NCBI GenBank assembly: GCA_951799425.1
Contig: OX637398.1
Span: forward strand, 22,144,270 to 22,208,269
Direction of reading: 5' to 3'
Length of the DNA: 64,000 nucleotides
Origin: Ilex aquifolium
Lineage: Eukaryota; Streptophyta; Magnoliopsida; Aquifoliales; Aquifoliaceae
The notes under the pieces are model-generated. The model did no database searches and was not told the origin of the DNA. It was given only the letters and a program-made list of their open reading frames with translations. Positions 5,162 to 57,390 of the stretch are shown in pieces (positions within the stretch are counted from its first letter, which is position 1; the number at the start of each line of letters is the position of its first letter). The translations under genes and the position numbers were made by a program.

Positions 5162-7623
5162 GTAAATAATATTTGAAAAGATGTAGATATATGTAGTGAT
5201 ATAAGAATAAACCGTAGGAATAAATGCTATGGAGACAATTTGATTGGAGAAGTTACGTGTCGAAGATGTTTAAACTTGGAAAGGGTGATTAGACAAGTTT
5301 CTAAAAGTTTGTAGGTAAAAATAATGATTTCATTGAATCCGGAAGGTAGAAAAACATTGGGAGTGGTAATATGGGGGTATTGGAAGTTAAGAAGTATTTT
5401 GGAGTTAAAACACATTTTAGAGAAAATTTGGGTATAAAGGATTTTGGACACGGTCTACTATTTCGATCATAACTTTTTATTCTTAATTCCAAATGACCTG
5501 AAATTTTGACAGTAGATATTAGACATCTAGAGCTACAAAAGTGTATCTAATGGAAATTTTCCAATTCGACATCTAAATGGGTCAAAAATGGCATTGGAAG
5601 TGGAAGTAGAAAAATCTGGGTAGTGACTACCGGTAGCCAAAATAAGCTACCGGTAGCCAAATTCAGCTACCGGTAGCCAATGGTCCAGTAAGAATCAGCT
5701 ACCGGTAGCCAACCGGTAGCCGATGGTCCAGTAAGAATCAGCTACCGGTAGCCGAGGGTCCCGTGTGTCCGAGCTACCGGTAGCCAAAAGCAGCTACCGG
5801 TAGCCACTGTAAAAATCCGAATTTTCTGTTCGCGAACCCTCGATTTTTCCTCCACTATAAATACATTTTGTCACCTCCTTAGCCTTCATTACACCACTCC
5901 AAACCCTAGCTAGCTTGAGAGGAGAAGAGAGGAAGAGAAAAACACATCCAAGAGAGAGAGATTTACATCATTTGTGAAGATCAAACCCTAGATTTCTCAA
6001 AAATCTCACTTCCCCACCCATTTCTTTTCTTCTATTCTTCAATTACTCACACCCAAATTTCTTGAAACCCTAGGAGGACGAAATTAAGCGGAAAAAGGAA
6101 GGAGAATAGGAAGATTTTGAAGCTTGGGTCTTAGATTGAAGCTACAACTAAGAGGTAGGGGTATTTCTCTCATTTCTCATACATTGAGGCTAGGGTTGTA
6201 TATTTATGTATGTCTCTCACTTGTCTTCTCATATATATGATATGTAGTACATGATTCTTGATATTTTTGCAATAAAGGACATGTTTCAAACATTTTGGTG
6301 GTTGGGTAACCATGGAACCATTCTTTTTCACAATCCAACCCGAGTTTTGAAGAAAATGGATTTTTCCTCTTAAATTCCTTTTGTCTTGGTTACCAAACTT
6401 TAGTGTTTTATCTTGTACAACAAAATGATGTTGCTAATGATCTCTTGTTCATTTTCTTAAAATTATGCTATGGTACATGGCTTGGGAAATTGGGGAATTT
6501 GATAATTTCTTGGGATTGTTTGTGAATAGAGATATTCTTGGTTTCCTCTTTTGTATGGTTGCTTGTGATGGACTTGAATTACTTACGAGATATGCCGTAG
6601 AGTGTAAATGTCAGTCGAACCCAGTGGGGGGAGATGGTTTCTTGCATTCGTAGTGGGTTGGTGTTTGTCAACACAACCGCTATCGTACGCCTGAAGTTCG
6701 AACTAGGGATGGTATACCTTTCCTGGGGAGGGATTCGGCAATGCCATGGGTATGGTATACGCCCCTTTCCAAATGTGCTTGTGATTATTATGGGTGGACT
6801 AGGTATAATCGTTGAGAAGATTCAAGAGAAACGATCAACATACATGGCCTTGAGGATGAACTAGAATACATGGGATTGTTATAGTATCTCTTGGGGGTTA
6901 TTGTTCATTCTACCAGAAACGATTTCGACAAGAGTTTTGGGGTAGTATGGGATGCCCCAAGAACTTGTGAGAAATAGTTTATGGTGGACATGGATTATAA
7001 ATTATATATGAGTATTGTTCATTGCACCAGATACGGTTTATGTTTTGGAAATCGATTATTAATTATATATTGGTTCCACTCACTCATGAATTATTCTTGA
7101 TGCGTAAACTTGAGATCTGATAAATTGTCCATGTTTTCCTTCAAAAGCTCTATATTATATTTGTGAAACGAGACCGACCCGTTTTATATGTTTTTTTTAA
7201 ACCTTGTTGGGTTTGGGAGAAATTTTCTACAGAGCTTCGTGCTCACCCCCTACAGTTGAACATTTTTCAGATTATACTCTTGAGGAGGATTTGGGAGTCT
7301 AGGAGCCCGCACATTAGGAGACTCCGATCGACAGGAGCGTGGATCTCGAGGTGGACGCTTAGAGCGACCCTCTCTTTTGTACTAGACTAGAATATTCTTT
7401 TGAACACTGTAAAGTCTAGTTTAATTTTGCTACTTTCCGCTGCGCTATAATAGTTAAATTATTGGGATGTAAATGCCATTGTTGGGCATATTCTTTTGGA
7501 TGTTATTGTATGTGCTTAAATGATGAAGTAAATTCTTTTGGATATTAGGTTGTGTAGTTGCTCTCATGATTGTAAATGGTTTTAGTATGTAATGCCGTCC
7601 AGGGTGTGTTTTGGGGCGTTACA
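5098..7623 (+). mobile_element. solo LTR inserted in gypsy gag
   Basis: A 2526-bp segment beginning TGTAACACCCCG and ending GGGGCGTTACA, flanked by perfect 5-bp target duplications GACAC (5093-5097 and 7624-7628). Gag similarity of the host element stops at one edge and resumes at the other. Inside are a TATA box (CTATAAATAC near 5863), a CT/GA-rich leader, a (TA)n run near 5136-5160 and a palindrome cluster. There is no internal coding region, so this is a solo LTR, probably of a gypsy element with long LTRs. Confidence 0.85.
5626..5806. repeat. cluster of GCTACCGGTAGC palindromes
   Basis: The perfect 12-bp palindrome GCTACCGGTAGC occurs six times, plus two partial copies, in about 180 bp at irregular 20-40 bp spacing. 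It lies just upstream of the TATA box of the solo LTR, the usual place for LTR enhancer repeats. Confidence 0.85.
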
Positions 7624-7628
7624 GACAC

Positions 7629-9190
7629 CGCCATAAAGTGGTACGAGAACTTGGCCCCCGAGAGTATCAAATCGTGGAAGCAAATGACTGAGCTCTTTGT
7701 GGCTCGGTTCATCACCAGTAGCAAAAGGCCAAAAGATATCGGCGCGTTGCTGAATCTCAGACGAAGGAGTGGAGAATCCTTTCGGCAATACGCGATTAGG
7801 TACTGGGAGGAAGTTAATGAGGTTGAGGCCTGCTCAGAAGCAATGGCTGCAACGACATTTCGGCTGGGATTGTCCCGAGACACCGACCTGTATAGATCCC
7901 TTACCAAACAGGTCTCGGGAGACATGAAAGACCTGATAGCTCGGATAAACAAGTACGCCAGGGTGGAAGAAGAGTCTGCGGTGCCCAATAATAGGGCCTC
8001 GGTGCCGAGGAAGAGGGAGAAGGAACCACCTGCAAGGAGAGGGGCGCCCATCCCACCTCCGAGTTGTATGTCCTTCCAAGGAGTGAACACGGTCTTCAAA
8101 GAACCCATTTACAAGATGCTGCACAAGATAAATGAGAAGTCTTTCTTTAAGTGGCCGCCAAAGATGCAAGGGGACCCATCGTTGAGGGATTCGACATCTC
8201 GGTATGTGGGACACTTAACTGAAGATTGTAGGGTGTACAAGTCCTTCTTGGAGCAATTGGTCCAAGATGGGCATCTTGGGGAATTCATTGAAAAGCCTGC
8301 CAGAGGCTCAGCGGAAGGAGGTTTGAATGTATTTCAGGAAGCGACAACCGTGATTGAGGTAATACACGCTTGCATAATTGAAACACCAACGTATAAGTCC
8401 CTCCGGGCCGACCTCCAGAGGGTCTTGCAAGCAGTTAAAGTGGAGAGCAGTCATCTAAAAGGCCTCGGACCAAAGCTGAGAGGATAAGCTTTTTCGATGC
8501 CGGCCTCGGAGGGTTAGTACTCCCACATGAAGACGCTTTAGTGATCACCCTCCGAGTCGACAAGTTTGATGTTTGGAGGATCTTGGTGGAATTGGGTAGT
8601 TCGTCTGAGGTTATGTATGACAATCTCTTCCGTAAAATGGGTTTCGCTCAGAAAAACTTGAAGCAAGTGAGGACCCCCCTCATAGGTTTCAACGATTTCA
8701 ACGTCTTTCCCCTCGGGAAGATCACCCTCATGGTCAGTGCCGGGATCGTCACTGTCCCAGTCGAATTCGTGGTGATAGACTCTGATTCGCCATATAATGC
8801 CATCATGGACAGGACGTGGTTACATGCAATGAGGGCAGTGCATTCGTCCTATCACCATAAGATTAAGTTCCCCACTCCCAGGGGGGTTATGGAGATTCGT
8901 GGCGATCAGACATCATCGAAAAACTGCTTTTACGCCGCTGTGAAGACTGGGGTCAACAGCCGAGCTCAGGAGCGTGATCCCAAGGTGGTGGTGGCTAAAT
9001 AACAATCACAGTTTAGTCGGCCTGGTGTGGACGACCCCATTACAAAACCAGCCGATCGATCAACGGAGGCCCTGGTCAAAGTTTTTTTAAATCCCGGGGA
9101 TGAAGAGAGGTCTTTTTTAATAGGGGCGACATTAGGCGGCGCCGAGAAGTCTGACCTGGTATTGTTCTTGCATCAAAACGCCGACGTCTT
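7629..9190 (+). mobile_element. gag and protease region of the gypsy fossil
   Basis: The frame starting near 7629 matches the retrotransposon gag core (WYENLAPESI, then FRQYAIRYWEEV), running to about 8487. From 8541 to 9002 follows an aspartic protease-like region (LVELGSSSEVMY, then VVIDSDSPYNAIMDRTWL). After it comes the short lead-in that normally precedes reverse transcriptase (about 9110-9190). This is part of the fossil described above; gag is split by the solo LTR. Confidence 0.8.
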
Positions 9191-9195
9191 TGCAT

Positions 9196-9319
9196 ATATT
9201 GATGTATGTACATATATATGTATATACTGCAGGTGTTTATACTGGATATATATAACAGATGCTGCAATTATAAAATCCAAAAAACAAAATAACAGAGAAA
9301 TAGGGTCTAAATGACTAAA
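9196..9319. other. junction between gypsy fossil and Ulp1 gene
   Basis: AT-rich stretch with TATATA runs immediately after gypsy similarity ends. It doubles as the 3' flank of the minus-strand HMG-Ulp1 gene. No target duplication or terminal repeat was found at the junction. Confidence 0.5.
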
Positions 9320-12300
9320 TCAAGCATATGACATCATTTTTCCACCATTAGCAAATCGCATACGTGCCTTGGAAACAACTTGGTTTCTTAATCTGTTTTC
9401 AATGTGGGTGACCAGTTGAACAGCTAGCTTCCGGCGCATATCATTCGAATCATCCTGACACCAATAATATTGTTAGTGTATGAAATACGAAAAGTGGTGA
9501 AATAAGTGCAACGTAGGTGTCCATCTGTTTTATTACCTTTACCATCCAGCCAGGACCTAACAAAGGTTCCTCCATGAATTTAATAACAAACATACCACAG
9601 TCGTGTCCATTATCTTGTCTTGGAGCCCATCCGGCTTCTATCAAAGGGAATGTGTGGAGAATTGGCTTGTACAAACAATCAATACACTGAAGTAAAGAAT
9701 CAAGATACGCAACCACCTTCTTCACGTCGAGTTGTCGACGGTTGCTGTCTGTTAATGGCATAGAGTCAAGCAATACAACTTCACGCTCAACTACATCGAT
9801 CATGCATAAGTACCAATGTAGATTGTTGTCGTTCATGGAAATAAAAATCTGCATTAAAAATTCAATGACCCAATGACAGTAAATGAAAGTAAGATACATA
9901 TGAAGAACCTTGTCACAATCTTCAAATTTGTTTATGTAATCAAACAGGTTAAGAAATGAATCATTTGTGTATTGTACACCTGGATTGGACGATACTCTTC
10001 CAATTGCTTGTTGTTGAATATATTCACAAATATTAGTCCTAACAAAAGTCAATTTATGGTTGATGCATTGAAAATCACGATAATGCCGTTCACAAGGGGT
10101 GGATGCATTACCAAAAAGTATGTGGGCAGAAATCATCTACTCTTTAGATTTAACGGATTCGTCTTCCTCCCTTGGATAGTAATGTATGCAGCAAGATTTA
10201 TTATATTTACAACCAATATACGAATACAGACATTTCAATTAAGAGTTTTTTACCATATTTATTAATCTAAAAACATGAATATTCGATGTAACTCACCTCA
10301 GCACAAATCCATTGAAAATTGCATAAACTCATCATTGACTTTCTGGTTGCGAACTCGTGACTGAATTTAACCAAGACCTCACTGTCCGGCAACACAATTA
10401 TATTATGGTATTATATATGACAAACAATTTCAAACGTGTATATGTGTATGACAATTTTATACCTCAAATCTAAAGAAGCATAAAAAATGTATGCCAGTAT
10501 TGATACCGTATCAACGGTAGTAATTTCGTCAATATCTGGATAATCCACGATTACTGGTGGTAGACACGCACTCGAATCTGAAATCTGGTTAACGGAACAA
10601 ACTTTTAATGTGCAATAATAATCCATGGGTATCTCTAATACAATACCACTACATACCAACCTTATGAATCTCTGCAACACTGGTGCTTTCCTTTTGGACA
10701 AACTTTAATCTTTTCTCAATTGTACTCTCTGTATGCAGTATAGGTTCAATGTCATTCTTCCTTCCATCAAGTAACTACAAAAACAATAATTATTTTAGGT
10801 ACATTTGAGTTAACTACATTAATGGGTTTGTGTGACGTGATATGTAATTGGAACATGACCCGTTACCTTAAAAAACGCGTCCGTTGAACTGCTATGATCC
10901 TTAAAAATGCACTTTCTGCTTAAATCATTATTCACTTCATCATTCACATCTTTGTCCGCAACATTCATCTGCGATCGACTAGTCTATTAGAATAACTATG
11001 TCAATAATGTAAATGACATTTGATGGTGATTTTAATTAGCGTGAACAATTGACAACCTACCTCGGCTACTTCATATGGTGACTTCAACCAATTACTTATG
11101 GCATCAATGGACGCTGCCAACTGTCCTTCTTTCTTTACATTCTTATTCAACCGACGATGCTATACATGAAATAAGCACAAGGATAACAAAGCATACATGT
11201 TAAATTATAAAATATAACAACTATCATACCTTCGGGAGTACATAGGGTGACTTCAACCATTTACTTGGTTTTCTTTTAGAACCTCTACAAACAATCTTTG
11301 CCATTCCTGACTTCTGTGTACATGAGTATGATGCCGATTGAGGATAATCAATATATGTGGGTTGAAACAATGCAAGTGCATTTGAATCAAGTTTGTTACA
11401 ATCTGTCGCCTGTATACTTTCAACCAACTTCACAGCAGAAAACAGTGTTGCAATATGATTATGATTTTCAGATCCATGTATGGCCCACGCATTCAATCCA
11501 TTACTCCTACCATTACCATCCTTCACATTAGTGTGACCTTGTGGTATGCCGTCAAAATTGGAACTATCTCCTGATGTGGTTTCCATCATTTTTTTCAGAG
11601 TGGAAATCAATGAATTGAATTCTACAATCATTTCAGTTAAGTTTGACTGCATTTTGCACACAACGGCGTCGACATTACAAAGTTTTTGTTCAATGGCCTG
11701 TGTCAATCATTTACATATCATTTCACACATAACAAATTAAATTTGTATTGTGGTAAAGTATCAACAACACTTACTGTAAATCTTTCATCGCTATTTATTT
11801 GAGAAGCCTGAATTGTCGATATTTCTTTCACATGTGTGTTTGATAAACCATGATTGGTATCTGATAATGGAACCTATAATGAACATTTCATAAAATTATT
11901 TATTATGTATTACAAGATAATTGCATAAATGAAAAAATGATACTCGAATATATTGTAGCCAGCCTGACTTCTTTAAAAGAATCATACGGTCATTAATTTC
12001 TTTATCACCCCATGCAGCAATTCGGGGAAGGGTTCGACCCATGTATGGAACATCCACAACTCCATATGGTGTCACCCGCTCAAGGAAAAACAGCTTCACA
12101 TAAAAAATGGTGAATTTGCCAAACTTTTTTTTCATGACCATTTATGCTATTAATACTAGAATGCAAATGTGTAGTAAACAATTAATTACCATTAGGACAA
12201 GTATGCACCCACTGATATTGTGCTGATTATTCAGCTTGTACTTCTGCACTCCTGTAATAACGCCATCATACACAAGCTTCACCCAATTCTTCTTGCCTAA

Positions 12301-13307
12301 ACCTCCAACATCTATTATCGAGTGAATGGAAGATGTGCTAACCGTGGTCCTCATTGTGGGAAGCAATAAATAATCAAGTACAAATAAAACAAATATACGC
12401 TTGAACTCAACAGAATTATCCTTCATTTCAAATAATCTACCCTCTAGAACTTTCAAAGGAATAACCTTGAGTCCCTTGAACAACGATTCACATAACTCAA
12501 TTATTCTATCAGGGGCCCCGCTCCTCTCCACATCTAGCCCTTCATTTTTTTCAGTCCCATTATCAACTCAACATTTACAGGAGAGAACTTCAACAATTTT
12601 CCATACACATTGAGTGCACAACCTTCCGGATCAAAGCACTCCACTAACCATGCACACAAATCTCTCTTTATTTGTTTACATTTAAGGTTTAACACTTCAC
12701 CCAAACCAATTTCTTCAACACCACGTCGTTGTTCTTCACTTAACTTTTCTATTATCTTGATGACCATGTTTGGTGAACATCTTGTGCTCAGCTTGACCTT
12801 CATAATATCAGAAAAATACATATACATATTATGTACTGTTTTCTATGTATAAGTGCACATATATATGCCTTTCCAAACAAAATTCAAATTACCCCATTGC
12901 AGTTCTTCATGTTTCCTTTCAAACGCTCGTATTCCAACTTTGATGAATTCGCCAAATCTATGTATTTTCCTTTGTCAACATCAGTCATCTTACGCCATTG
13001 CAGAGCACAATCTTTCATTACCTGAAATTACTTCCATTACACTTGATAAACATGACTTCGCCAAATTACAAAGACTAACACGTTAAATATACATACCTGA
13101 TTTTTTGTTTTCGCTTCTTCCCCACCTTCTTTTCTCTTTAAATTCTCTTTGCTGCATATGGAAGCAAATGTTAAAGATTTAATCTACATCTTTAACCTAC
13201 ATCCACGTCGATCATTATGCCAAATACCAAGTGACTCACCAGTAATAAATCCAGGCGGTTGATGGCCGATGTATTTTATTTGCATCCCTTTTACATTCGA
13301 TGTACAT
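9320..13307 (-). CDS. HMG-box / DUF1985-like / Ulp1 (C48) protease gene
   Basis: I read 15 exons on the minus strand with GT-AG borders: 13307-13240, 13151-13097, 13021-12893, 12797-12190, 12093-11944, 11873-11775, 11697-11230, 11159-11061, 10968-10867, 10774-10661, 10584-10463, 10381-10297, 10136-9909, 9848-9537, 9454-9320. Phases agree throughout except in exon 4, which is one base short in an A7 run at 12545-12551. Predicted product is about 924 aa. Exons 1-3 form an HMG box. Exons 4-5 resemble the DUF1985/plant-mobile-like region found in plant Ulp1-type proteins (RDLCAWLVECFDPEGCALN, then TLPRIAAW). Exon 7 is a polar linker ending KRKPSKWLKSPYV. Exon 14 is the Ulp1 cysteine protease. Such genes are often spread by DNA transposons, but no terminal repeats were found, so host or transposon origin is open. 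The first ATG is the least certain point. Confidence 0.75.
9537..9848 (-). other. Ulp1/C48 protease catalytic exon
   Basis: Encodes 104 residues with the full catalytic set in order: His in NLHWYLCMIDV, Asp in VVLLDSMPL, Gln and Cys in PRQDNGHDCGMFV. This H-D-Q-C arrangement defines Ulp1/SENP peptidases, which cleave SUMO or related modifiers. All four catalytic residues are present, so the domain looks competent. Confidence 0.85.
12893..13307 (-). other. HMG-box domain over three exons
   Basis: Exon 1 encodes the basic start of an HMG box (KRDANKIHRPSTAWIYY), exon 2 a charged helix (KENLKRKEGGEEAKTKNQ), and exon 3 the long C-terminal helices (VMKDCALQWRKMTD, then KYIDLANSSKLEYERLK). Junction phases 2 and 0 join cleanly, with one codon split as TG|C. 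The length of about 75 residues and the W/K/Y/EY pattern fit HMGB-type boxes, which bind and bend DNA without strong sequence preference. Confidence 0.72.
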
Positions 13308-13680
13308 CTTCTTTACCCTGAGTATAATATGTCTTCTATTACAACTTGAATATGTCCCAATGTTACACAGCATAACAGAAAAAAAATTTCGGTACTTACA
13401 TGGATATTGCTTCAATCGAATGCACATACACGATTATAATGTATCAAACTACCGTCAAACGCGACTAACAACAACAATGGACTGCTCCGGCATCGCTTAC
13501 AGTCGTCGCCCTGCTTTTGGAAGGATTTGGTGGGGGAGTATAGCGTAGTGATGAAGGTAATAGTGTTGTTGGCGGGATCATCTGGGCGGGATACATTCAA
13601 AGTGGGAGGGAAAACAATTATTTAATAATTTTGTTGTCCATCATGCTGGGGTCCACATTTCCCTCTACAGGAGTAGCAAA
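13308..13680 (-). promoter_or_regulatory. 5' flank of the HMG-Ulp1 gene
   Basis: Upstream region of the gene. An acceptor-like TACTCAG|GG at 13319-13317 precedes exon 1, so a non-coding first exon may lie further upstream. A short frame at 13412-13600 (minus) has no recognisable domain. No clear TATA box was chosen. Confidence 0.35.
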
Positions 13681-13689
13681 TCATGTGGG

Positions 13690-13775
13690 CAAAATAAGAT
13701 CGATCGTTATTAAATAAGATCGATCGTTATTAAATAAGATCGATTGTAACTAAATAAGATCGATCATACGCTTCC
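13690..13775 (+). repeat. 22-bp direct repeats with GATCGATC
   Basis: Four consecutive near-copies of AAATAAGATCGATCGTTATT, the third and fourth diverged, at the left edge of the block. Confidence 0.85.
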
Positions 13776-13989
13776 TTATTTGATATCACCAATGCAATGT
13801 ATATCATGTTAGGATCGATCTTTATTATTATGATCAATCCCAATTCCCCATTCCCCCCTATGAAAGACGCCCCCCCCAGTAAGGTTGTAACACAAATAGG
13901 AAAAAAAAAGCCCCCTTAGATCGATCATGTAAATTTATGATCGATCGTCTTTGCCCTTTCTTGTAATAACCTTGTCTTTATTTTAAAGG

Positions 13990-14760
13990 GTAACTTTACC
14001 ACTATAGGTGTTAATCATATTCTTACGAGTGGTAATCCTACCTCAAACGGTACTAACCTTACATCAACATGTAGTACTCTTACATCAACTTGTTGTAACC
14101 TTACTACAAAATGTTTTAACCTCACCCCTAAATATTACAACATTACCTCTCCATGTAGTAACCTGACAACAATTTGTTATAACCTCACCCATAACGATTA
14201 CATCTTTCCCACCTACACGAGTAATTTTACCTTTATCCATTGTAAGTGTTCCTTTTTTGTCAATAAACTTACTTTTCTTTCTATTGGTAACTTTACCTCA
14301 ATAGGTGGTAATCTTATTATTAAAATTGTAATCCTACCTACAAACGTAGTAACCTTACCTCTCCATGTTATAACCTCACCCCTAAAGGTTACCTCTTTGC
14401 CATTGACAGCAATTATTTAACCTTTATGCATTGTAACGCTCCCTCAATAGTGGATACACTTACCTTTCAATGGGTAACTTATCCTAAGTAGGTGATAACT
14501 TTATTTTTAATATTGTCATCTTCCCTGTAGCATTTGTAACCTTACATCAATGTGTAGTAACCTTTCATCAAAATGTTATAACCTCACCCATAACAATTAC
14601 CTCTTTGCCACTGATTGGAGTAATTTCACCATTATTTGTAATAACCTTCCCTCTATTATACATAACCTTGCCAATTAATGGATAACTTATTTCACATCAC
14701 CTGTAAACCTACTAATCAAACTTGTAATCTTTCCTACAAAATTGTAACCTAACTTTTAAT
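13990..14760 (+). repeat. 21-bp minisatellite, first copy
   Basis: Degenerate units of the form AACCTTACATCAACATGTAGT follow one another at a strict 21-bp period between about 14050 and 14210, with looser copies on either side. Because 21 is a multiple of three, one frame stays open and reads as a heptapeptide repeat of NLTxxxx type. This is taken as a by-product of the period. Confidence 0.75.
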
Positions 14761-15116
14761 GTCCATAACATTCAATCATAAGATCGATCTTACATAATTT
14801 AAATAGAACACGGACCTAAGATCGATCGTACATATTTAAGATCGATCATAGTATTCATTATTTTGATCTCAACATGCACTGTATATCCTTTTAGGATCGA
14901 TCTTTTTTTGTTCATGATTGATCCCAATTCCACATTCCCCCCATAACTTACCTCTACCGGTATGATCGATCATGTGAATTTACGATCGATCTTATATACC
15001 CTTTCTTGTAACCTCACCACTAAATGTTACCTCTTTCCAACCGAGAGGAGTAACTTTACCTTTATGCATTGTAAGTGTTCCTTTTTAGTCTATAAACTTA
15101 CCTTTATTTTAATGGG

Positions 15117-15895
15117 TAACTTTACCTCTATAGGTGTTAACCTTATTTTTACGAGTGGTAATCCTACCTCAAACGGTACTAACCTTACATCAACATGTAG
15201 TACCCTTACATCAACTTGTTGTAACCTTACTACAAAATGTTTTAACCTCACCCCTAAATATTACAACATTACCTCTCCATGTAGTAACCTGACAACAATT
15301 TGTTATAACCTCATCCATAACAATTACATCTTTCCCACCTACACGAGTAATTTTACCTTTATTCATTGTAAGTGTTCCTTTTTTATCGATAAACTTACTT
15401 TTCTTTCCATTGGTAACTTTACCTCAATAGGTGGTAATCTTATTATTAAAATTGTAATCCTACCTACAAACGTAGTAACCTTACCTCTCCATGTTATAAC
15501 CTCACCCCTAAAGGTTACCTCTTTGCCACTGACAACAATTATTTAACCTTTATGCATTTTAACTCTCCCTCAATAGTGGATACACTTACCTTTCAATGGG
15601 TAACTTACCCTAAGTAGGTGATAACTTTATTTTTAATATTGTCATCTTCCCTGTAGCATTTGTAACCTTACATCAATGTGTAGTAACCTTTCATCAAAAT
15701 GTTATAACCGCACCCATAACAATTACCTCTTTGCCACTGATTGTAGTAATTTCACCATTATTTGTAATAACCTTCCCTCTATTATACATAACCTTGCCAA
15801 TTAATGGATAACTTATTTCACACCACCTATAAACCTACTAATCAAACTTGTAATCTTTCCTACAAAATTGTAACCTAACTTTTAATGTCCATAAC
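15117..15895 (+). repeat. 21-bp minisatellite, second copy
   Basis: Near-identical to the array 1126 bp to the left. An open frame of 194 codons (14962-15546) runs through it with repeats such as NLTSTCS and NLTTKCF. It has no known domain and no gene-like context, so it is annotated as repeat, not gene. Confidence 0.75.
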
Positions 15896-16012
15896 ATTCA
15901 ATCATAAGATCGATCTTACATAATTTAAATAGAACACAGACCTAAGATCGATCGTACATATTTAAGATCGATCATAGTATTCATTATTTTGATCTCAACA
16001 TGCATTGTATAT

Positions 16013-16480
16013 CCTTTTAGGATCGATCTTTTTTTGTTCATGATCGATCCCAATTCCACATTCCCCCCCCCCCCCCCATAGGCAAGCCGCTCCCCCAGTA
16101 AGGTTGTAACATATGTACAGGAAAAAATTTTAATTAGATCGATCATGCTCTTGTATGATCCATCTTAATTATCCTTTTTTAAGGATCGATCTTTTTTGTT
16201 CATGATCGATCCCAATTCCACATTCCCCCCCATAGGCAAGCCGCTCCCCCAATAAGGTTGTAACATATGTACAGGAAAAAAATTTAATTAGATCGATCAT
16301 GTTCTTGTATGATCCATCTTAATTATCCTTTTTTAAGGATCGATCTTTATTGTGTATAATGGATCCCAATTCCCCATTCCCCCCGTAGGCAAGACGCTAC
16401 CCCAGTAAGGTTGTAACATAAGTACAAAAAAAAAATTTATTTAGATGGATCATGTGTATGTACGATCGATCTTAAATATC
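16013..16480 (+). repeat. about 160-bp tandem repeats with poly-C box
   Basis: Three successive units, each with AGGATCGATCTTT, a GATCGATCCC-like site, CCCAATTCC, a C-run (longest at about 16064-16078), AGGCAAG, AAGGTTGTAAC and TAGATCGATCATG. The third unit, from about 16338, is the most diverged. Confidence 0.8.
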
Positions 16481-16886
16481 CGTTTACTCACCGGCTAAGC
16501 AAGTTATAGGTTTACAACACATGCTGACCAAAAAAAAAAAAAAAATTTAAATCATCATATCAATGGTTCTGCACTAATGACCAGAACATCAACGGCTCCC
16601 AGGAGATATTCGGTACCGTACCGCATTTTGACCAGGCGGTACCATAGCCTGCGCCTTTTTATATACAATGGGGAGAAGAAAGGAAGAGGAGTCATGACCC
16701 ATTGTCTACTCAATTTACCTAACTGAATATATTAATTAAATGGAGGATATGAAAAGGTGGGAAAATATATTACCATATTATAGATTATAGTTATGGAGTT
16801 ATTAAATGATACATAATTGTCTTTATATATTTTTATAAGGGTAATATAGGAATTTAAAGGTTTTTCATGTATCTTGACATTTAGAA
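16481..16886. other. spacer without recognisable gene
   Basis: Contains a poly-A run (about 16530-16546), a patch with GGTACCGTACC and GGCGGTACC near 16610-16645, and AT-rich sequence. No coding frame or terminal repeat was recognised. Confidence 0.5.
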
Positions 16887-19605: not shown

Positions 19606-20520
19606 TTACACCAGATGCACCACAGGCAACCTCAAACACCTTAGAAAAATTTGGGTGCTGAAGGACGGGTGCCTCTTCCATCTTGTGCTTAATTTCTTGA
19701 AAGGCTCTAATTGTAGCAAAAGTCCATTGAAACTTCTATTTTTCTTGCACTCTGTGATGGGTGCCATAATGAAACTAAACCCCTTAATAAATTTTCTATA
19801 GAAGGTGGCCAAGCCATGAAAGCTTCGAACCTCATAAATTGTTCTTGACTCTGGCCACTTCCTAATATCACTAATTTTTTCTGGGTCAGCTGCAATATCA
19901 TGTGCAGAAATAACAAATCTAAGGAAAAGAACTTGAGTTTTTATAAAAGAGCATTTCTTAAGGTTCACATAGAATTTTTCCACACGTAATGTCTGCAAAA
20001 CCTGTCGAAGATGATCCAAGTGCTCTTCGTTAGACTGACTGTAGATCAAGATGTCATTAAAATAGACCACCACAAATTTCCCTAGGAAAGGACGTAGTAT
20101 CTGAGTCATAACCCTCATAAATGTGCTAGGTGCATTAGACAATCCAAAAGGCATGACCAACCACTCATAAAGTCTATCCTGGGTTTTAAATGTAGTTTTC
20201 CATTCATCTCCTGGTCTAATTCGGATTTGATGATAACCACTGTGCAAATCAATTTTGGAGAACCAAAGTGCACCGGCCAAAAGGTCAAGCATATCCTTAA
20301 GTCTCAATATAGGAAATTGATACTTGACTGTAATTTTGTTAATGGCACGACAATTAACACACATTCTCCAAGAGCCATCTTTCTTAGGGATCAACAAAGT
20401 AGGGACAACACATGGACTAAGACTAAGATGAACAGATCCCTTTTGCAAAATTTCGTCTACTTGATTTTGTAGTTTAGTACGCTCAGTGGGATTCATACGA
20501 TAATGGGGAAGGTTAGACAA
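19606..20520 (-). mobile_element. reverse transcriptase region of the gypsy fossil
   Basis: Gypsy RT signature in order: [63 protein letters not shown]. RNase H follows. Part of the broken element. Confidence 0.9.
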
Positions 20521-20838
20521 CTAAGACCCTAGAACTAAGTCAATGGCATGCTGAACATCTCTCATAGGTGGCAACTCATCAGGTAGTTCCTTAGGAATCA
20601 CATCGTGGAGCTCTCTCAATAAACTATCAACCTTAGGCAAAAGATCGTCCTTAGGCAAAAGATCGTCCTTAGATTCCAAAGGACTCTGGAAAACTTATTT
20701 GACAACTAGAACTACCACTATGCTAGACTTTTTTCTCTCTTTTTCAAACTCCCTATGGGTCAAGATGTGAAGATCTTTCTTGTGAATTTTCTGGGAAGAT
20801 GACCTATGCTTTGAATTATTACCTTCTGAGGGTTTTAG

Positions 20839-22231
20839 CTAGATGGTTTTCCCATTGTGATTAAAAACATAGGTATTTTCTCTCTCATAGTTTGTCACAT
20901 CTAGATCAAAAAGCCACAGACGACCTAACAAGACATGAGCAACATCCTTGGGTAACACATCACACCATATATGATCAGAGTAGTCACCCATCTGAATAGG
21001 GACCAAACATCTCTGTGAGACTAGTAAGGAGGTCTTATCAACCCATGCAACCTTATAAGGTTGTAGGTGTGGCTTTGGCTTAAGTTGCAACTGAGCGACA
21101 ACCAACTTAGAGATGACATTTAATGAACTTCCCCTATCAATGCCGACCTTGCAAACTTGACCGCCACATTGGACTAAAGCATGGAAAATGTTGGTGGTTT
21201 CCATGTTTTTGTGCTTGACAGGGTGGATAAGATACATCACATGACACTAACACGGGTGTCGTCATTCTGCCATTCTTCCTCATCTAAATGATCAATTTAT
21301 TGGTCAACATCCTCTCCTTCAAGTGAATCCCCTAACCATTGGTAAATGGTCAAGGTACACTAAGGGCACTGTGAAGTAATATGACCCTTGTCATGACAAC
21401 GTGACACTCTATGGAAGAACTATCCTGGCGAGAACCTGTCAGTGTAGAGTCTCGACCCCTAGTGGCATTACCTCTCGAGTTGGGGTAAGTGTTACCCCTA
21501 GATGTGATACGCCCCGATTGGGTGACGCCTTGAGACCTATCAAATGAGACTGACCTTAATGGTTGAAACTCTTCAGTTTGAGAAGGCATGAGCTGCTGAA
21601 AGGGTGGCCTAAGGTATTTTTCAATCTCTAAGGTCTTATAATATGCTTCCTCAACCATTTCAAGAGAGTGTAAGTTAATCTCTCTTTTAATCTCAAATCT
21701 CAAGCCATTAATGAATTTTATAACTGTTACCCAAGGCTCTTCCTTTATGTCACATCTCATAAAGAGCTCCTCAAATCGAGCTAGATAATCAGTCATACTC
21801 GAGGTCAATTGACGCAAGTTCATCCACTTGTCCAAGAGTTGGCGCTTATAGTAACTAGGGAGATATTTATATTGCAATCTTTGTTTCATCTCAGCCCGCA
21901 AAGTAATGGGTTGTCCCTCTAAGCGTTCTTGTTCTCGTTAGACTCCTTGCCAATATCTCTTAGCCGAACCAACGAGTTTTATTTTGGCAAAACGAACCCG
22001 ATGGTCATCAAACATATCATACCAATCAAAATAGCCATCCATTTCATCCAACCAATCTAAGGAAACAACAGGATCTAACCTACCATCAAATCTAGGAGCA
22101 TCCACTTTGACTCTTTGCGTGATATCCCTAGATTCTTCATGGACATGCCTATGTCGAGGATTATGGTAACGCGGAGGGGAAGGCTTGTTGTATCTGACAT
22201 GTGGTCGTAAGGGCTCACGATAACCATCCAT
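20839..22231 (-). mobile_element. gag and protease region of the gypsy fossil
   Basis: Protease-like segment with GIDRGSSLNVIS and HVLLGRLWLFDLDV, preceded in element direction by a retrotransposon gag core (LPSYYKRQLLDKWMNLRQ) and an N-terminal piece (PRFDGRLDPVVSLDWLDEMD). Fossil. Confidence 0.8.
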
Positions 22232-25925: not shown

Positions 25926-27089
25926 ATGGCAAACTCATCATCTTCAGGTTCAATAACTTCACCAGTTTCTACTACCACTTCATCGAATCTTCCTTTCCAA
26001 TCTCCCATATATCTTCTGTCTAATATTTGCAATTTGATTTCTCTTCATTTAGATTCCACAAACTATATTTCTTGGAAATTTCAGATCTCATCACTATTAC
26101 GAACTCACTCTCTACTAGGTTTTCTTGATAGATCAAATCCTTGCCCTCAAAGGTTTTTACCAGATGCAACTGGAGCTCCTACCACATAGATTGATCAAAG
26201 TTATCAACAATGGCAGATTCAAGATCAGGCCTTAATGACACTGATTAATGCTACTCTGTCGCCATCATCAATTGCTCATGTTGTTGGTTATAATACATCA
26301 CAAGATGTCTAGTTAGCTCTGGAAAGATGATTCTCCTCACAGTCTGGAGCAAATGTTCTTCAACTCAAAACTAGTTTGCAATCTCTTACCAAAGGAACAA
26401 ATTTAGTTGATGATTATGTGCAGAAAATCAAAGTAATCTATGATAAACTAGCAGTAGTTTCAGTATTTGTTGAAGAAGAAGATATCCTATTGTATACGTT
26501 GAATGGCTTGCCATAAGAGTACAACTCTTTCAAGATAGCAATTGGGACTAGATCTCATCCTCTATCTCTTGAAGAGCTTCATGCTTTACTGAAAACAGAA
26601 GAAATTTTTGTCAATGTTGTTCAAAAAACACAACATACTCAGTTCTCACCTACAACAATGCTTGTTACACAGTATAAATCATATAGCAATCAACACAATC
26701 CAGGTAGGAACAATTTTAATCAAGGACGAAGTGGCAATCAAGGTCGATATGGTAATAGAGGAGGAGGTAGAAATCAATATGGAGGAAGATCTAATTCTCA
26801 GCATCAGGGTTCTCATAAGCAGTTTTCTAATCAAGGCAGGAATCAGTCTTTCAACTACAACAAACCACAAATAACTTGCCAGATCTGTAACAAATTTGGT
26901 CATAGTGCTACTAACTGCTATCATCATATGAATTTCTCCTATCAAGGTAGTCACGACCAGTATCAGTCTTCCTCTTCTCTAAACTCTGCTATGATGGCCT
27001 TTTCAGATTCCTCTTCCTATTCTCTAGTGGATCATCTATCTGATAATCAGTTCCCTGCCTCTTTTGGTTCACAAAATTCGAATTACTAG
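25926..27089 (+). mobile_element. gag region of the copia fossil
   Basis: Copia gag text from 25926 and, near 26870-26925, a CCHC zinc knuckle (CQICNKFGHSATNCYH). Between them is a Gly/Asn/Gln/Arg-rich stretch. Fossil, broken. Confidence 0.85.
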
Positions 27090-28740
27090 TTGACTGACTC
27101 AGGAGCATCGCATCATCTCATTTCAGATCTTGATAATCTCACTCTTGCTTCTCCTTATCAAGGAGATGCAAGCGTTACTGTTGGTAATGGTCATGAACTT
27201 CACATTACTCACTCAAGTCACTCTCTTCTTGTCACTCCTTGTTATTGTTTTAAACTCAATAATGTACTCAAAGTTCCTGCTATTTCTGCTAATTTGATTT
27301 TTGCTAAGAAGTTTTGTTAAGATAATCATTGTCTATTCATTTTTTATTCTAACTCCTTTGTTATTCAGAACAAGGCCCCCATGCAAGTCCTCTATCAAGG
27401 CAAATGTAGCAATGGCTTGTATCCAATCGTTGGTGTTCAACCTTCATCTTCGTCCCCTGTTGCTTTTCTTGGCACCAAAGTAACAGCTGACATATGACAT
27501 GATCGATTAGGCCATCCATCTTCTCCAGTTCTGCATCAAATTTTGTCTAAGTCTAATATTCCTTACAATAAATCTAGTTTTCATTCTTGTCAATGTACTC
27601 AGTGTTGGTATGGAAAAATGTCCAAACAACTTTTTCTTGTTTCTACTACATTTTCAGCTTCTCCTTTACATATTATGCATAGTGATGTTTGGGGTCCAAC
27701 CCCTCATCCTTATATTCATGGATATAAATACTATGTTTCATTTGTTGATGATTGTACTAGATTTACTTGGATATTTCCCTTGCTTGTCAAATCAGATGTG
27801 TATACTGTGATTACTCAGTTCAAGCCCTATATTGAGAATAAACTGTCTCATACTCTTAAAACTCTGCATTCTGATGGAGGTGATGAATACAGTAGTCTTC
27901 AACTCAAGCAGTATCTTACTCTTAATGGCATTCATCACATCAAATCTTGTCCTCACACTCCTCAACAAAATGGCATCGCAGAAAGAAAACATAGACACAT
28001 TACAAAAATAATCATTGCTCTTCTTACAAAAGTCTCTTTACCTTACTCTTTCTGGTTTCATGCTTTTGCAGCAGACACTTAATTTATTAATGGAATGCCT
28101 AGTAAAGTCACATCCCATAAATCACCTTATGAACTTCTTTTTCATGAAATTCCTTATTACTCTTCTCTCAGAGTGTTTGGTTGTGCCTGCTATCCCCTTT
28201 TGAAACCTTACAACAAACATAAGCTTGAACCCAAGACCACTTAGTGTATTTTGATTGGTTATCCTTTTGACTACAAGGGATACTTGTGCTATGATCCTCT
28301 CCATCATAGAATCTATACTTATAGACATGTTATTTTTCATGAGAATGTGTTCCCTTATGCAACTCAGTCTTACACATCTTCCTTTGTTTCTCCAGATTCA
28401 ACTCGTTGGTTTCCCTCTACTATATCCTCTTGCTATGTTTTTGTTTTGGGCTCTTCTTCTTCCACTTCTTCTGCACCCACTCCATATATAAATCATTTGT
28501 TTCTTCATGTGTCTTCTTGTGTTTCTTCTTCTCTAGCCCCTCAATCTGAGATATCTTCTTCTATCTTTTCCACTCCATCTTTACCTACTTCCACTCCTAT
28601 AGTTTCTGGTCCAGTTTTAGTTCATCATATGCAAACCAGATCCAAGTCTGGCATCTTCAAACCCAAAACATATATGGCTACACCTTCTTCCTCTATCTCA
28701 AAACCCACCTCTTATACAACTACTTCTAAATCCCCCGAAT
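27090..28740 (+). mobile_element. protease and integrase region of the copia fossil
   Basis: Protease motif DSGASHHLISD at its start, then integrase: HSDVWGPTPHPYIHGYKYYV, a DDCTRFTWIF stretch and SCPHTPQQNGIAERKHRHI. Fossil. Confidence 0.85.
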
Positions 28741-34961: not shown

Positions 34962-37900
34962 TCAATCAACTCTGATTGGCAGGAGATCCATGACAAGCAA
35001 AGAGAAGTGATTTTTCCATTCTCCTGGGCTTGCAAAAGGCATGAAACCGCATAACAAAGGCAGAAACAGAAGAAGAGTGGTATAGAACATGACCCGCCTA
35101 AGCCAGTATGGAAATACTGTACTGCCTTTTGCCCTTTCAGACACATTGATGGGTCCATGGAGAACAAGAAACAATGCTGAGGTACACATACTTGAAAAGA
35201 AATGCAATAAACATAAAGCTTCCCAATAAAAGAGCCAATGGTATCCACTGCCCCCCAATGTGTCGATGCAGAGTTTTCCCGCAAAGCCACATGCAATTCC
35301 TAATAGCAACAGTATTAAAGTAACTGGCATCGTCTGTGTTGAAGTTGCAGAACGCTGGAGAAGCAGATAACTGATAGCCAGGATCATGAACGCACCAAAC
35401 AACATACGACTCACAGCTTGAACCTGACACTTTAAAATCTGCAGACCCGAATTAAAAGATGACATTGGCTTTGGCATCCACCAAGACTGGGACTCCTGCA
35501 AGTGAAACAAAGCATCATAAGACATTTTAAGCAATTACAGACCTACACATCGACATCCTCACACGCACAAACACATACAACAAGAACAGAAAAAGAGCAA
35601 GCTTTGCAAGAGTCTCAGCAAATCATACATAATCAATGGCAAATAACACTAGCAGCAGCATCAATCAACGAAACAACTTTTGGCAACAAAAGGAAACTGA
35701 AGGGGAAAATCGATCCTTTTCCCCAAATCGGCAAATCCCAAACACCTAATAACAAACAATCAAATACACATACAATGGTATCAATTTTTCATATTTTTCT
35801 GGAAAAAGGAAGAAAAGCCTTTTTCCCCTAGTTCATTTAATCAAGATTCATCATTGTTTTGGATCTTGCACGACGTTGAAATCATCAGATAAATTTCTGC
35901 CTAAAAAAGTTAGATCCTGCATTAAAAGTTCGATAACATACGGATCTCCAGGTCTAAGATAGACATCACCTAGGTATAATATTCCTCCAACCCGCCTAGT
36001 CTGTACTGTCCTGTAGAGAATACTAATCCAAAATAGAACATAAACTTACAGTCTACGAAGATAAGGGATTTTGAAATTTTTCTTTTTAAAGGTAACATTA
36101 AGTTGCATATTTATTCAATAAACATTTTTCAGGAGATAATCAACACAAATAGGTAAGAAGATAGACCATCATTTCTCAAAAAATTCAAACCATAGGCTAC
36201 AGTATGCTTTAGACATAATAGATCAACCAAATCCAGAATGAAGGTGGCACTTACCTTGCTAGGTATACAGGATGCAGTAGCTTCAGTAATCCGTTTGTGA
36301 GAATAAACATAAACCCCATATCCAAGGCAGGCCAACATTATAAGCATCCCAGCAACAAGACTGTCGATACACGTTTTAAGCAGCTCAGCATGCCTAGTGA
36401 CTTCTAATTCATTTCTGAATTTGTCGGCTTTAAAGGACGCCTTAGAAATACCCATTGATAATTTGCACCTCTCCAAAAAATTGAGATCAGAGTCCAGCGC
36501 CAGCTGTGTTTCTTTCAATCGCAACTTTTTCATGGTAAGACCAATCTCAATTGTCTTGAGATCATTAGAACGAGCTTGCTCCATGATAGATTTTTCATAA
36601 GTAGAGAGCACGGATTGGTTAATAACAGAAAGCACTGTGCTTGAAGGAACACAAGCCAACTGTTGGTTTAGGTGTCCATCATGCAGGGCAAGCTGCTGGT
36701 TTATTGGATTGGCCTGCATGTGCTCTTCTGTCCCTTCAAGACTGCTCAGTTGTTCATGACTCCTGATAGAGCAAGGCACTGCTTCGGACTCACAATCTTT
36801 TACACTGGAATTGCAACTAAGGTCTCCTTCTATGCTGGAAGACACTGGTTGCATAGATGTTGAAAAATGACTTTCTTCCTTTAAATGTTTATGGTTTTCT
36901 TCTCCGTTGTTTTGAGAAGTCTCATTGATTAATCTAAGAGTCATCAAGGTGCTCCGAAATGATTTCTCAAAGTTCCTCGCAAAACAATCAAACTTGTCCC
37001 CAAATACCTGGATCCACACAAAGCAATTAAAAAAAAAAGAAACATATATTCTGGATTTGGCATCTGAATATGTTTGATGTTGACAAGAACTACACGAAGA
37101 AAGTTAACTCGACAACATAGTCAATTGATCAGTCAGCAGGTTAGATAGGGCTTACATTGGCTAAAGACTCCTTGACAGCCAAGGTGCAGATCTGCAGGTC
37201 GAGTGTATAAAGTGAGAATCAATGAATGCCATACTTCAAACAGATAAACCCAAAAGACAATTAAGCATAATGAAAACAAAAAAATTACAAATGTTTCATC
37301 AGACTGAATGGAGCAACAGCTGGATGATCCACAGCTAAAACGGTTACTAGTGGGGTTATTACAACCATATAATCTCTCAGCTTTCTTGGCAGGCAGCACA
37401 TGTGTAGTGACAATCATACGTGTGCAAACAGGCATAAAAGGCTAGGAAAAGAATACATTAATGGATTACCATGGTCTATGACTGGCTGCATTTGGACAGA
37501 GTTTCAAACATATGATCTTAAAGGAGGATATAGAAAATACCATAGAAAGATGGTCCACTGTCATCGTTTCCCCAGCTGCATCTTTCCTTTCCAGGACCTA
37601 CAATCAATATGTACCAAACACCACCACCAACCAACAGCTACTTAGAGCTCATTGAAGAAAACAAAAGATCACAAAAATATTGGTCCACAGCTATTAAGAA
37701 TTAAAATGGATATGAGATGACAAAGACACGCCAAATGTAAATCCTTCAAAAGCTAAAGATAAAACGTCAAATTAACATCTATTCCAAAAAACTTGTATGC
37801 CAAGTATTACCCTGTGATTAGCATACTTACTATTCGACCAAATTAACATCAGATTTTCATTAGTAATTATCAGTAATCATCCATTTCAGACCCTAAAGAC

Positions 37901-54640: not shown

Positions 54641-54841
54641 TTTTTATTGCTTTGATGTTTTTTCTTGGTAAAGAGAAGAACTGTTAAGAACTCTTCAAAA
54701 TCCATGTTAATCTCTTTCATGATTTGCTGGGGTGTCAGCTTTATATGTCAAACATTATGACGATGAAATTAACCTAACCTAACATCTTTGTAAATGACAT
54801 CTAATGTTACTTTTGATGTCTTTATTGTAGAATTATTACCA

Positions 54842-57390
54842 ATGGCTGGAAGACGTGCATTTGTGATGGTTTATTGGAGTGGTAAGATTGTTAAGAACGA
54901 TGATGATTTAAGGTATGATAATGGTTATAAGCGTGTGACAAAGGTTGCTAATGACACAAGTCACTCGATTTTGGTGGATAGGATGCATGATGTGACGGGG
55001 ATAGATAGGAATAAATACAACCTTAAACTCATCTGTAGATTCCCTATTACATTGACAACTAGCCTCTTTTCATATATGGAATTAGAAGTTGTTGACAACG
55101 ATGGTGTGGAGGCAATGTTGGATGTTGTATTTGACAATCAAGATGTCAACATAATTGATTTGTATGTGAGTGAAGAAGATAGGTCCGATGACATTGGTTG
55201 TAGTCAGGAAGGTTGGTTTGATGGTGGTCCATACTCTTCCCTACTCAGTCAACAACTATATATCCCAATGGTTGGCCCTTCAACAAATGTGAATGATTAT
55301 TACACCCCTGTAACAATGCAGTGTATGGAAGAATACAATCGATATACACATGCATAGTCAAAACAGGGCCCAGTTCTTTTCCCGAATGCTCATCTCAGCA
55401 ACACTATAGTGGTACTATTAGTAACGAGCGGATGGATATGACATGGTTAGCCCGAGGTTGGCACCATTGGACCCCATCCAAGAACTTGTAATGCATCAAA
55501 TTACTAATAATACATATGAAGGAATGTGTGCTAATGACCGGAATGAGTACTATGAACAAGAAGAATTGTTAGAAGAATTATTAATTGATGAGTCTAATGA
55601 TGATGATGATGGCGTAGGAAATTCTGTCGAGGATGATGGTGAGGTTCCTATGCACCAGCCCGAGTCAACATTCTTCACAAACATGGAATCAGACACCCAG
55701 AATGAAGTTGACAGATTTTGTAATTTGCATGAATTTAAAATATGGGATCCATTAGGACCTGAATTGTTGAAGGGTGTGGTGTTCAGGAATAAACAAGAGT
55801 TGGAGATGGTAGTGAAATTGTATTCATTAAAGATGCACCAATAATATGTTATTGTTGATACAAACAAAACGCGCTGGGTTTTGAGGTGTAAGATGCATGT
55901 AGAATGTGGATGCAAATGGAAGTTACAGGCGATTTTGAAGGCGAAACACGGAATGTTTGAGATCACAAAATATGAGAGACCTCACACTTGTTTCTACCCA
56001 AGGTTGAACCAGGACCACTGTTAGCTTGATGCAGGCTTTATTTCTTGATGGATTGAGGGTTTGGTTCGAGTTACACCAGATATCAATAGAAATGGTGAAA
56101 AAATAGTATCAATATTTGATAACGTACAAGAAGGCGTGGAATGCGAAGAATAAGACTATAACAAAGATTTTCGGTGACTGGGATAGTTCTTACAACATCT
56201 TGCCCAAGTTTATGGGTGCTCTTGTGAAATACAACCCCGGAATGATTGTGAGGTGGCAGTACGAAGTTCGTGCTCCCACATTCGACATATTTGGCAAGGT
56301 GTTCTAGGCATTCAAAGCTTCTATAGATGAATTTGTTCATTGTCGGCCTGTAATTAGTATTGATGACACATTTATAAATGGCAAGTATAAGTATAAGCTT
56401 CTGATTGCTACTGGAATTGACCCTTAGAAGCAGATTTTTCCTCTGGCATTTGCGTTTGTTCATGAGGAGACTCGTGAAATTTGGGATTGGTTCCTATATC
56501 ATCTATGCCACTTTGTTGTGCCGAATTGAGTTGGTATATGTTTAATATCAAATCAGCATAAATATATAATCTCAGCGGTTAAGCAAGCTGATTCTGGGTG
56601 GAATGAGCCATACGCTTATCACTGTTTTCTGTCTTAGGCATGTAAAAATCAATTTCAACACAACTTTCAAAAACACGTATTTAAAAGATCAAGTGTGGAA
56701 GGCTGGGTAGCATATCAGATTTGCAAGTTTAATTTGATAATGGAAAAAATTAAAAATGCAGACCTAAAAGGTGTGGGAGTGGTTAGATAAGATTTCAGTA
56801 CAACAGTGGACACTTGCCCATAATGGTGGCTGGCAATATGGAACAACCACAACCAATGTTTTCGAGGTGTTCAATGGTGCACTCAAAGGTGCAAGGATGT
56901 TTCCCATCACTGCATGTGTGAAATTCATATTTTATCGGCTCACAAAATACTTTTGTGAGTGTCGTGAGCATGCACAACACTGCATAGGCAATGGTATGGA
57001 GTACTCGCCTAATGCAATCGAATTTATGCGACCCAACCAGATCAAAGTAGGAATGTGCAATGTTACACCATTTCACATGCGACGGGAAGTTGTAGAAGTG
57101 GTCACTAATAATGGTAATACACATGTTGTGTGTATTAATGACCAGACATGCACTTGTGAGAAATTTATAATTTATAAAATGCATTGTTCCCATGTTATGG
57201 CCTCTTACTCTCATTTTCATGTTAGTTCATGACATTTAATCGATCCAGTATTCAGCATCCAGGCACTTGGGCACTTGAACTTCAGCCTCTGCACCAACAA
57301 GATTATTGGGATGATACCGACGGTTCTACATTATTTCATGATAGGTCGTTGCATTGAGGAATTAGAGGACGTCTACAGACATTGCAAATA
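54842..57390 (+). pseudogene. Mutator-like (MULE) transposase, decayed
   Basis: Plus strand. N-terminal MuDR-type segment (RRAFVMVYWSGKIVKNDD) from 54842 to 55357, an acidic linker, then LKGVVFRNKQELEMVVKLYS and the CxC-type FLYWCH/FAR1-like zone (CKMHVECGCKWKLQAI). The DDE core follows (VISIDDTFINGKYKYKLLIA, then FAFVHEETREIWDWFLYH), and near 57150-57215 a SWIM finger (TCTCEKFIIYKMHCSHVMAS). Stops interrupt it at, among others, 55843, 56023, 56047, 56307 and 56426, so it is dead. The last part of the gene lies beyond a solo LTR. Confidence 0.85.

Follow-up and report, generated by a model that had tools for sequence, protein, structure and literature searches.

A predicted HMG box and Ulp1-type protease gene carried by a FAR1-type Mutator-like transposon of Ilex aquifolium

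The closest described systems are transposon-borne genes of plants. Two papers describe VANC proteins of VANDAL elements, which have a DUF1985 region, recognize short motifs arranged as tandem repeats in the noncoding DNA of their own family, and cause DNA methylation to be lost at these places (PMC5735166, PMC10398659). Some VANC-type or related VANDAL genes also carry a Ulp1 domain, the precise function of which is given as unknown (PMC13317346), and the reason for the recurrent uptake of Ulp1 by transposons is an open question. In grape, ULP genes are located within Mutator-like and CACTA elements, according to excerpts of PMC2528002.

The holly gene analysed here resembles VANC genes in its DUF1985-type region, in its variable many-exon organization with internal repeats, and in the short-motif tandem repeats found in noncoding DNA of the element. 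It differs from them by the addition of an HMG box and a Ulp1 domain, by the FAR1-type transposase of the element and by the remoteness of its DUF1985 match, and an anti-silencing role is ascribed to it by analogy. With the Kaonashi elements (KI/KIU) of Arabidopsis and the ULP genes of melon, rice and grape it shares a C48 peptidase domain inside plant Mutator-like elements as well as a high copy number, but no HMG box is mentioned in the excerpts that describe those genes. The term HMG is absent from the grape paper (PMC2528002) and likewise from the two VANC papers (PMC5735166, PMC10398659). KI elements are described as being of the non-TIR type, with the ULP gene opposite mudrA, whereas the holly element has inverted ends and carries the HMG-Ulp1 gene on the transposase strand, with a partner gene opposite. 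Ginger1 and Crypton also bring a Ulp1-type protease onto a DNA transposon; their transposases are, however, integrase-like or tyrosine recombinases, and the excerpts describing them mention no HMG box. HMGB-type proteins have the HMG box in common with the holly gene, where it is instead fused to a protease and borne by a transposon.

Ulp1 in transposons is already known, and the HMG box joined to it is what sets the present gene apart. The initial annotation of the locus, made from the letters alone, knew of no HMG box described on such a polypeptide, and our search agrees with it insofar as no description of an HMG-Ulp1 fusion was found in the open-access literature, a coverage outside which most subscription papers lie.

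Gene structure and encoded domains

The window, a stretch of 64,000 nucleotides (C8:22144270-22208269) from an 800-Mb assembly, carries on its minus strand a gene of 15 exons (9320..13307) that encodes an HMG box, a region resembling DUF1985 and the plant mobile domain (PMD), and a Ulp1 domain. Comparisons between plant loci were all made within this single genome. The initial 15-exon model could be rebuilt with GT-AG borders throughout, and the exon phases agree everywhere except in exon 4, where the frame of the window copy is broken in a homopolymer of seven A. Past this break, the 12 exon pieces that follow provide 757 codons closed by a terminal stop and interrupted by no internal one, as against 82 and 57 stops in the other two sense frames of the same pieces. 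The introns are short (60–160 bp) and have a lower GC content than the exons (0.291 versus 0.383). An additional 5′ exon upstream of 13307, giving a split start codon, is possible.

The HMG box is encoded by exons 1–3 (13307–13240, 13151–13097 and 13021–12893; overall 12893..13307, minus strand). In profile searches with the window protein, HMG_box PF00505 matches this region well above its cut-off (E 1.8e-8, 35.1 bits versus 25.4), the match spanning both splice junctions, and HMG_box_2 PF09011 matches it as well (E 1.3e-6). The closest solved sequences are those of HMGB1 (E 3.5e-8). At the other end of the gene, exons 11–15 (9320..10584, minus strand) encode a Peptidase_C48 region matched by PF02902 over profile positions 79–216 of 217 (E 3.4e-15, 56.9 bits versus a cut-off of 20.7), and alignment with yeast Ulp1 (1EUV) places the H, D, Q and C columns in register. 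Both profiles that had been proposed as a check of the spliced product, PF00505 and PF02902, therefore score above cut-off. Exons 6–10 (10661..11873, minus strand) form a linker, part of which is basic; in it the motif WLKSPY occurs twice, once where exon 7 ends and once where exon 8 ends.

The middle region, encoded by exons 4 and 5 (12797–12190 and 12093–11944; overall 11944..12797, minus strand), is more difficult to classify. In searches admitting E values up to 10, the DUF1985 profile failed to match the window protein, and with a limit of 1 it likewise failed to match the protein of an intact copy of the gene (copy A, described below). The relationship emerges through the partner gene of the same element, whose corresponding region is 44% identical to that of the intact copy over 237 residues. 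The DUF1985 matches of the partner gene and of diverged relatives (E 8.3e-7 to 1.2e-4, 22.5–29.5 bits) stay under the cut-off of 35.1; in the partner gene DUF1985 and PMD are both matched below cut-off, and PMD exceeds its own cut-off in a single diverged locus, L065 (E 2e-9, 37.5 versus 34.9 bits). Since support comes by way of a 44%-identical paralogue and of diverged relatives, none of them over the DUF1985 cut-off, the term 'DUF1985-like' is valid solely as the statement of a distant relation. The domain order of the initial annotation accordingly stands for the HMG box and for the C48 domain with its H, D, Q and C residues, its middle part being reduced to this remote relationship.

The Mutator-like element and its copies

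A query stretch consisting of the HMG exons and exon 4 occurs in at least 41 places of the genome, at least 36 of them near-full-length (84–100% identity, the window's own copy included); these counts are lower bounds, 40 of 164 candidates having been scored. Thirty-six other copies were examined, of which 35 are near-full-length and one belongs to the five partial matches. Exon 4 has a length divisible by three in 29 of them, which indicates that the frame break is a defect of the window copy and a few others. The HMG reading proceeds without stop or gap in 24 of the 36 and contains a stop or gap in the other 12. Relative to the window, 8 indels fall in the HMG exons (252 bp) and 41 in introns 1–3 (258 bp), in a tally made per copy, so that events in common are counted once for each copy. 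Copy A (C3) has an intact HMG-Ulp1 frame of 926 amino acids, with GT-AG borders at 14 of 14 introns and an HMG box that lies barely over the PF00505 cut-off (25.8 versus 25.4 bits); in copy B (C5) the frame contains one internal stop.

Alignment of copies A and B, both of them complete, delimits one common unit some 23.4 kb long. On either side of copy A stands the 9-bp target-site duplication ATTAGATTA, identical at 9 of 9 positions, and this copy ends in short terminal inverted repeats (36 of 40 bp); the flanks of copy B, AATTCTTAC and AATTATTAC, match at 8 of 9 positions, as judged by eye from the printed flanks. In the orientation of the window, copy A contains a PF20167 gene (plus), a transposase gene (minus), the partner Ulp1 gene (plus) and the HMG-Ulp1 gene (minus). 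The 822-residue stop-to-stop frame of the transposase matches FAR1 (E 9.8e-23), MULE PF10551 (E 5.5e-26) and PF00872 (E 1.1e-7), with FAR1 and MULE above cut-off and SWIM below. It may belong to the FAR1-related (Jittery-like) branch, whose members combine a FAR1 DNA-binding domain with MULE and SWIM domains. The transposase of copy B has one in-frame stop. The PF20167 gene corresponds to a 'putative plant transposon protein' (E 1.4e-30), and no HMG box was found in the partner DUF1985/PMD-like Ulp1 gene.

The window holds a truncated copy of this element (9193..16655, minus strand). Its right terminus at 16655 is common to all three copies compared, whose flanks differ beyond it, and at 9193 it is cut against gypsy-like sequence, where two other copies continue. 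The window thus retains only the last ~7.5 kb of the element, which explains why the transposase of this element is absent beside the gene. The loss of the left end likewise leaves the window copy unable to show a target-site duplication, and the candidates looked at around it were unconvincing. No paired CACTA ends were found around the gene, and a CACTA element was rejected. Owing to its broken frame and its truncation, the window copy makes a weak case for a functional host gene. The gene almost certainly belongs to a FAR1-type Mutator-like transposon as one of its accessory genes; the initial suggestion of a DNA-transposon accessory protein is strongly supported by its multiple copies and by the target-site duplication, inverted ends and transposase of the element.

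Upstream of the gene, the window contains nested tandem repeats (13692..16485, no strand assigned) made up of 23 occurrences of GATCGATC, a 1126-bp unit in about two copies (977 bp aligned at 97%), three copies of a 154-bp unit, and units of 20 and 21 bp. All 23 occurrences of GATCGATC lie within 13640–16500, with two more in the remaining 61 kb of the window. A chance origin of the array was rejected by first-order Markov resampling of the region (mean 0.008, maximum 1 in 500 runs). The motif occurs 30 and 31 times in copies A and B, always inside the element, in two 26-kb stretches of each of which just ~2–3 kb lies outside it. These occurrences are confined to the outermost ~1.5 kb on the left and the outermost ~2.8 kb on the right, so that the intervening ~19 kb is free of the motif. 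The arrays might serve as binding repeats for the transposase.

Diverged loci and selection on the HMG box

A six-frame search of the genome yielded eight HMG_box matches, three of which sit 64–66 bp upstream of a match to the exon 4 region on the same strand, and a fourth (L062) about 140 bp upstream of an exon 4-type region. Close copies of the window gene are omitted by this search, their box being split over three exons. Five diverged loci were chosen for analysis: L061 and L062 for an HMG match near C48, L063 and L064 blind from the C48 list, and L065 as a locus of the partner type near L064. L061–L064 each display an HMG exon, then the TRCSP-type exon of the same middle region, then C48, with similar spacing, and no HMG match was obtained in L065. 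The order of domains is thus kept at other loci of this genome. Homologues containing both domains, on whose presence in related species the initial annotation had made the fusion depend, accordingly occur within the genome itself.

HMG exon 3 of L061–L064, taken alone, passes the cut-offs of both PF00505 and PF09011 in all four cases and is 44–47% identical to that of copy A. L061 and L064 are close kin (88% identity in the HMG box and 92% in C48), so the four loci represent three lineages besides that of the window. Searches for relatives in viral contigs and in bacterial and archaeal genome contigs found none.

Ratios of dN/dS were obtained by Nei-Gojobori counting, pairwise without a tree and on chosen subsets. 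For HMG exon 3, the comparison proposed by the initial annotation, carried out here between lineages of one genome, gives values below 1 (0.17–0.70) in all 10 pairs of five sequences, with Fisher p<0.05 in 6 of the 10; the exon has 32 codons and the pairs are non-independent, having branches in common. Close copies show a different picture, with a pooled dN/dS of 0.75 for the HMG exons (55 pairs of 11 chosen copies) and of 0.47 for exon 4 before the break (chosen close copies). In pairs of 10 chosen copies, the p-distance is 0.060 in HMG exons versus 0.068 in introns. Between copies A and B, the HMG-Ulp1 gene taken whole has a dN/dS of 0.77, the PF20167 gene one of 0.85 and the transposase one of 0.40. 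Because the HMG exons diverge at close to the intron rate and with high dN/dS among close copies, constraint on the HMG box is clear between lineages only. The recent copies are in almost free decay, and the conservation between lineages suggests that the HMG-Ulp1 product has very probably been under selection as one protein.

Predicted function and alternative readings

On the best reading, reached by analogy, the protein would resemble those VANC anti-silencing factors that bear Ulp1, and would carry an HMG box in addition. The best overall explanation of the locus, to which we give about even weight, is that of an accessory gene of a FAR1-type Mutator-like element with a VANC- or Kaonashi-like anti-silencing role and, in addition, the HMG box. 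The anti-silencing mechanism itself, modelled on VANC, is put forward with a confidence that falls a little short of even. HMGB-type HMG boxes bind DNA with little sequence preference, and a tie between the HMG box and GATCGATC is for this reason conjecture. The HMG box and the DUF1985/PMD-like region would together hold the protein on DNA, most likely at the GATCGATC/TAACCT arrays near the element ends, where the Ulp1 domain would act on silencing factors, histones or the transposase and strip them of SUMO or a related tag. Removal of the tag would open the chromatin of the element, which could then be transcribed and become mobile. A deSUMOylase-like enzyme directed to chromatin, as the initial annotation also suggested, would have to be set against the published view that SUMO is an improbable substrate of transposon ULPs (PMC6117577).

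The same domains might serve transposition itself, the HMG box bending subterminal DNA and thereby allowing the transposase to bring the two ends together, and the Ulp1 domain clearing SUMO from the transposase or from a repair factor. Such a co-factor has parallels in two papers, in which Sleeping Beauty transposition is said to have the HMG-box protein HMGXB4 as a host factor (PMC10138897) and Ulp1/OTU domains are proposed to act in the transposition of Ginger and Mutator elements (PMC2836005), and it would suit the presence of GATCGATC arrays at both element ends; the relationship to DUF1985/PMD and the rearranging arrays are nevertheless more VANC-like, and we regard this role as possible but rather doubtful. 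The HMG box could also be a captured fragment of a host gene, without function for the element, as gene pieces are frequently captured by Mutator-like elements according to excerpts of two papers (PMC13317346, PMC2528002) and constraint is weak among close copies. Such a passenger is nonetheless improbable, given that the fusion is kept in four lineages at ~45% HMG identity and with dN/dS below 1, and that L061, L062 and L064 have, further upstream, a helix-1 exon whose motif is similar, as noted on visual inspection and from weak tblastn matches.

In the gene model, intron 3 (12798..12892, minus strand, 95 bp) links the HMG exons to the remainder. If this intron were left unspliced, exon 3 would run into a stop directly after G-V-I, and there are upstream ATGs in the frame of exon 4, as would be expected if the HMG exons and the protease were two separate adjoining genes; the acceptor of intron 3 is moreover weak, 73 of 223 unused AGs outscoring it. 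Two genes would, however, have to accommodate a terminator and a promoter within the ~56 bp that separate this stop from the first ATG. The GT and AG of intron 3 are both retained in 29 of the 36 other copies, and in the diverged loci the domains follow one another in this order at similar distances, all of which makes separate genes very improbable.

Returning to the anti-silencing reading, the element could exemplify a widespread class of plant Mutator-like transposons with a two-gene protease system, in which an HMG-guided Ulp1 and an HMG-less, partly divergent partner would jointly recognize their own subterminal arrays and remove ubiquitin-like marks from silencing chromatin. This would constitute a third anti-silencing architecture beside plain VANC and VANC-Ulp1, a generalization from sequence that we offer as speculative. 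The joining of a protease to a DNA-bending box across diverged families renders the question of Ulp1 uptake testable, since tethering to element DNA predicts the enzyme's site of action. A built-in comparison is available in the partner gene of the same element, which lacks the HMG box. The element is also an example of a unit of more than 20 kb with four genes that is still multicopy in a plant genome.

Paired Ulp1 genes of the element

Each element of this Mutator-like type apparently contains a pair of Ulp1 genes in convergent orientation, as judged from copy A, the complete copy on C3 (read as L041), and from L065, a diverged partner-type locus. In copy A, the partner gene, which lacks the HMG box, occupies positions ~3700–6670 of L041. 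By eye, this gene has a K at the position of the catalytic Q of the HMG-type gene, and the Q is retained in L065. The genome match list holds several places where partner-like and HMG-type-like sequences lie convergently, ~14–36 kb apart; the one pair read comprises L065 (C4:9484316, + strand) and L064, a locus with the HMG–Ulp1 order (C4:9508876, − strand).

Exon structure of the HMG–Ulp1 gene

The ends of exons 7 and 8 can be aligned as DNA, with a score of 51 as compared with at most 40 in 300 shuffles, and these two exons are apparently the product of an exon duplication. A WLKSPY motif is encoded twice, once at each of these ends (window 11320–11060). Counting an additional upstream exon, the gene may comprise 16 exons in total, as far as its sequence indicates. 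A candidate intron read by eye at 13401–13317, running from a GTAAGT donor to an acceptor further downstream, would join the upstream exon to the gene and split the start codon.

Neighbouring sequences in the window

A gypsy-type fragment (7576–9192, + strand; Retrotrans_gag, E 2.2e-10) adjoins the element fragment at its cut left side, and its terminal portion, to ~9190, resembles gypsy pol by eye only. Other transposon-like sequences include a Ty3/gypsy-type sequence at 19606–21937 (RVT_1, E 1.4e-38; gag, E 3.2e-9), a copia-type sequence at 26517–28082 (rve, E 3.2e-9; gag_pre-integrs) and, at 54794–57229, the apparent remnant of a further, separate Mutator-type transposase, whose SWIM match (E 0.0049) falls short of the cut-off. 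A Pfam search of the reading frames at 34962–37103 (− strand) returned no family over the cut-off; these frames presumably resemble the plant protein CPR5.
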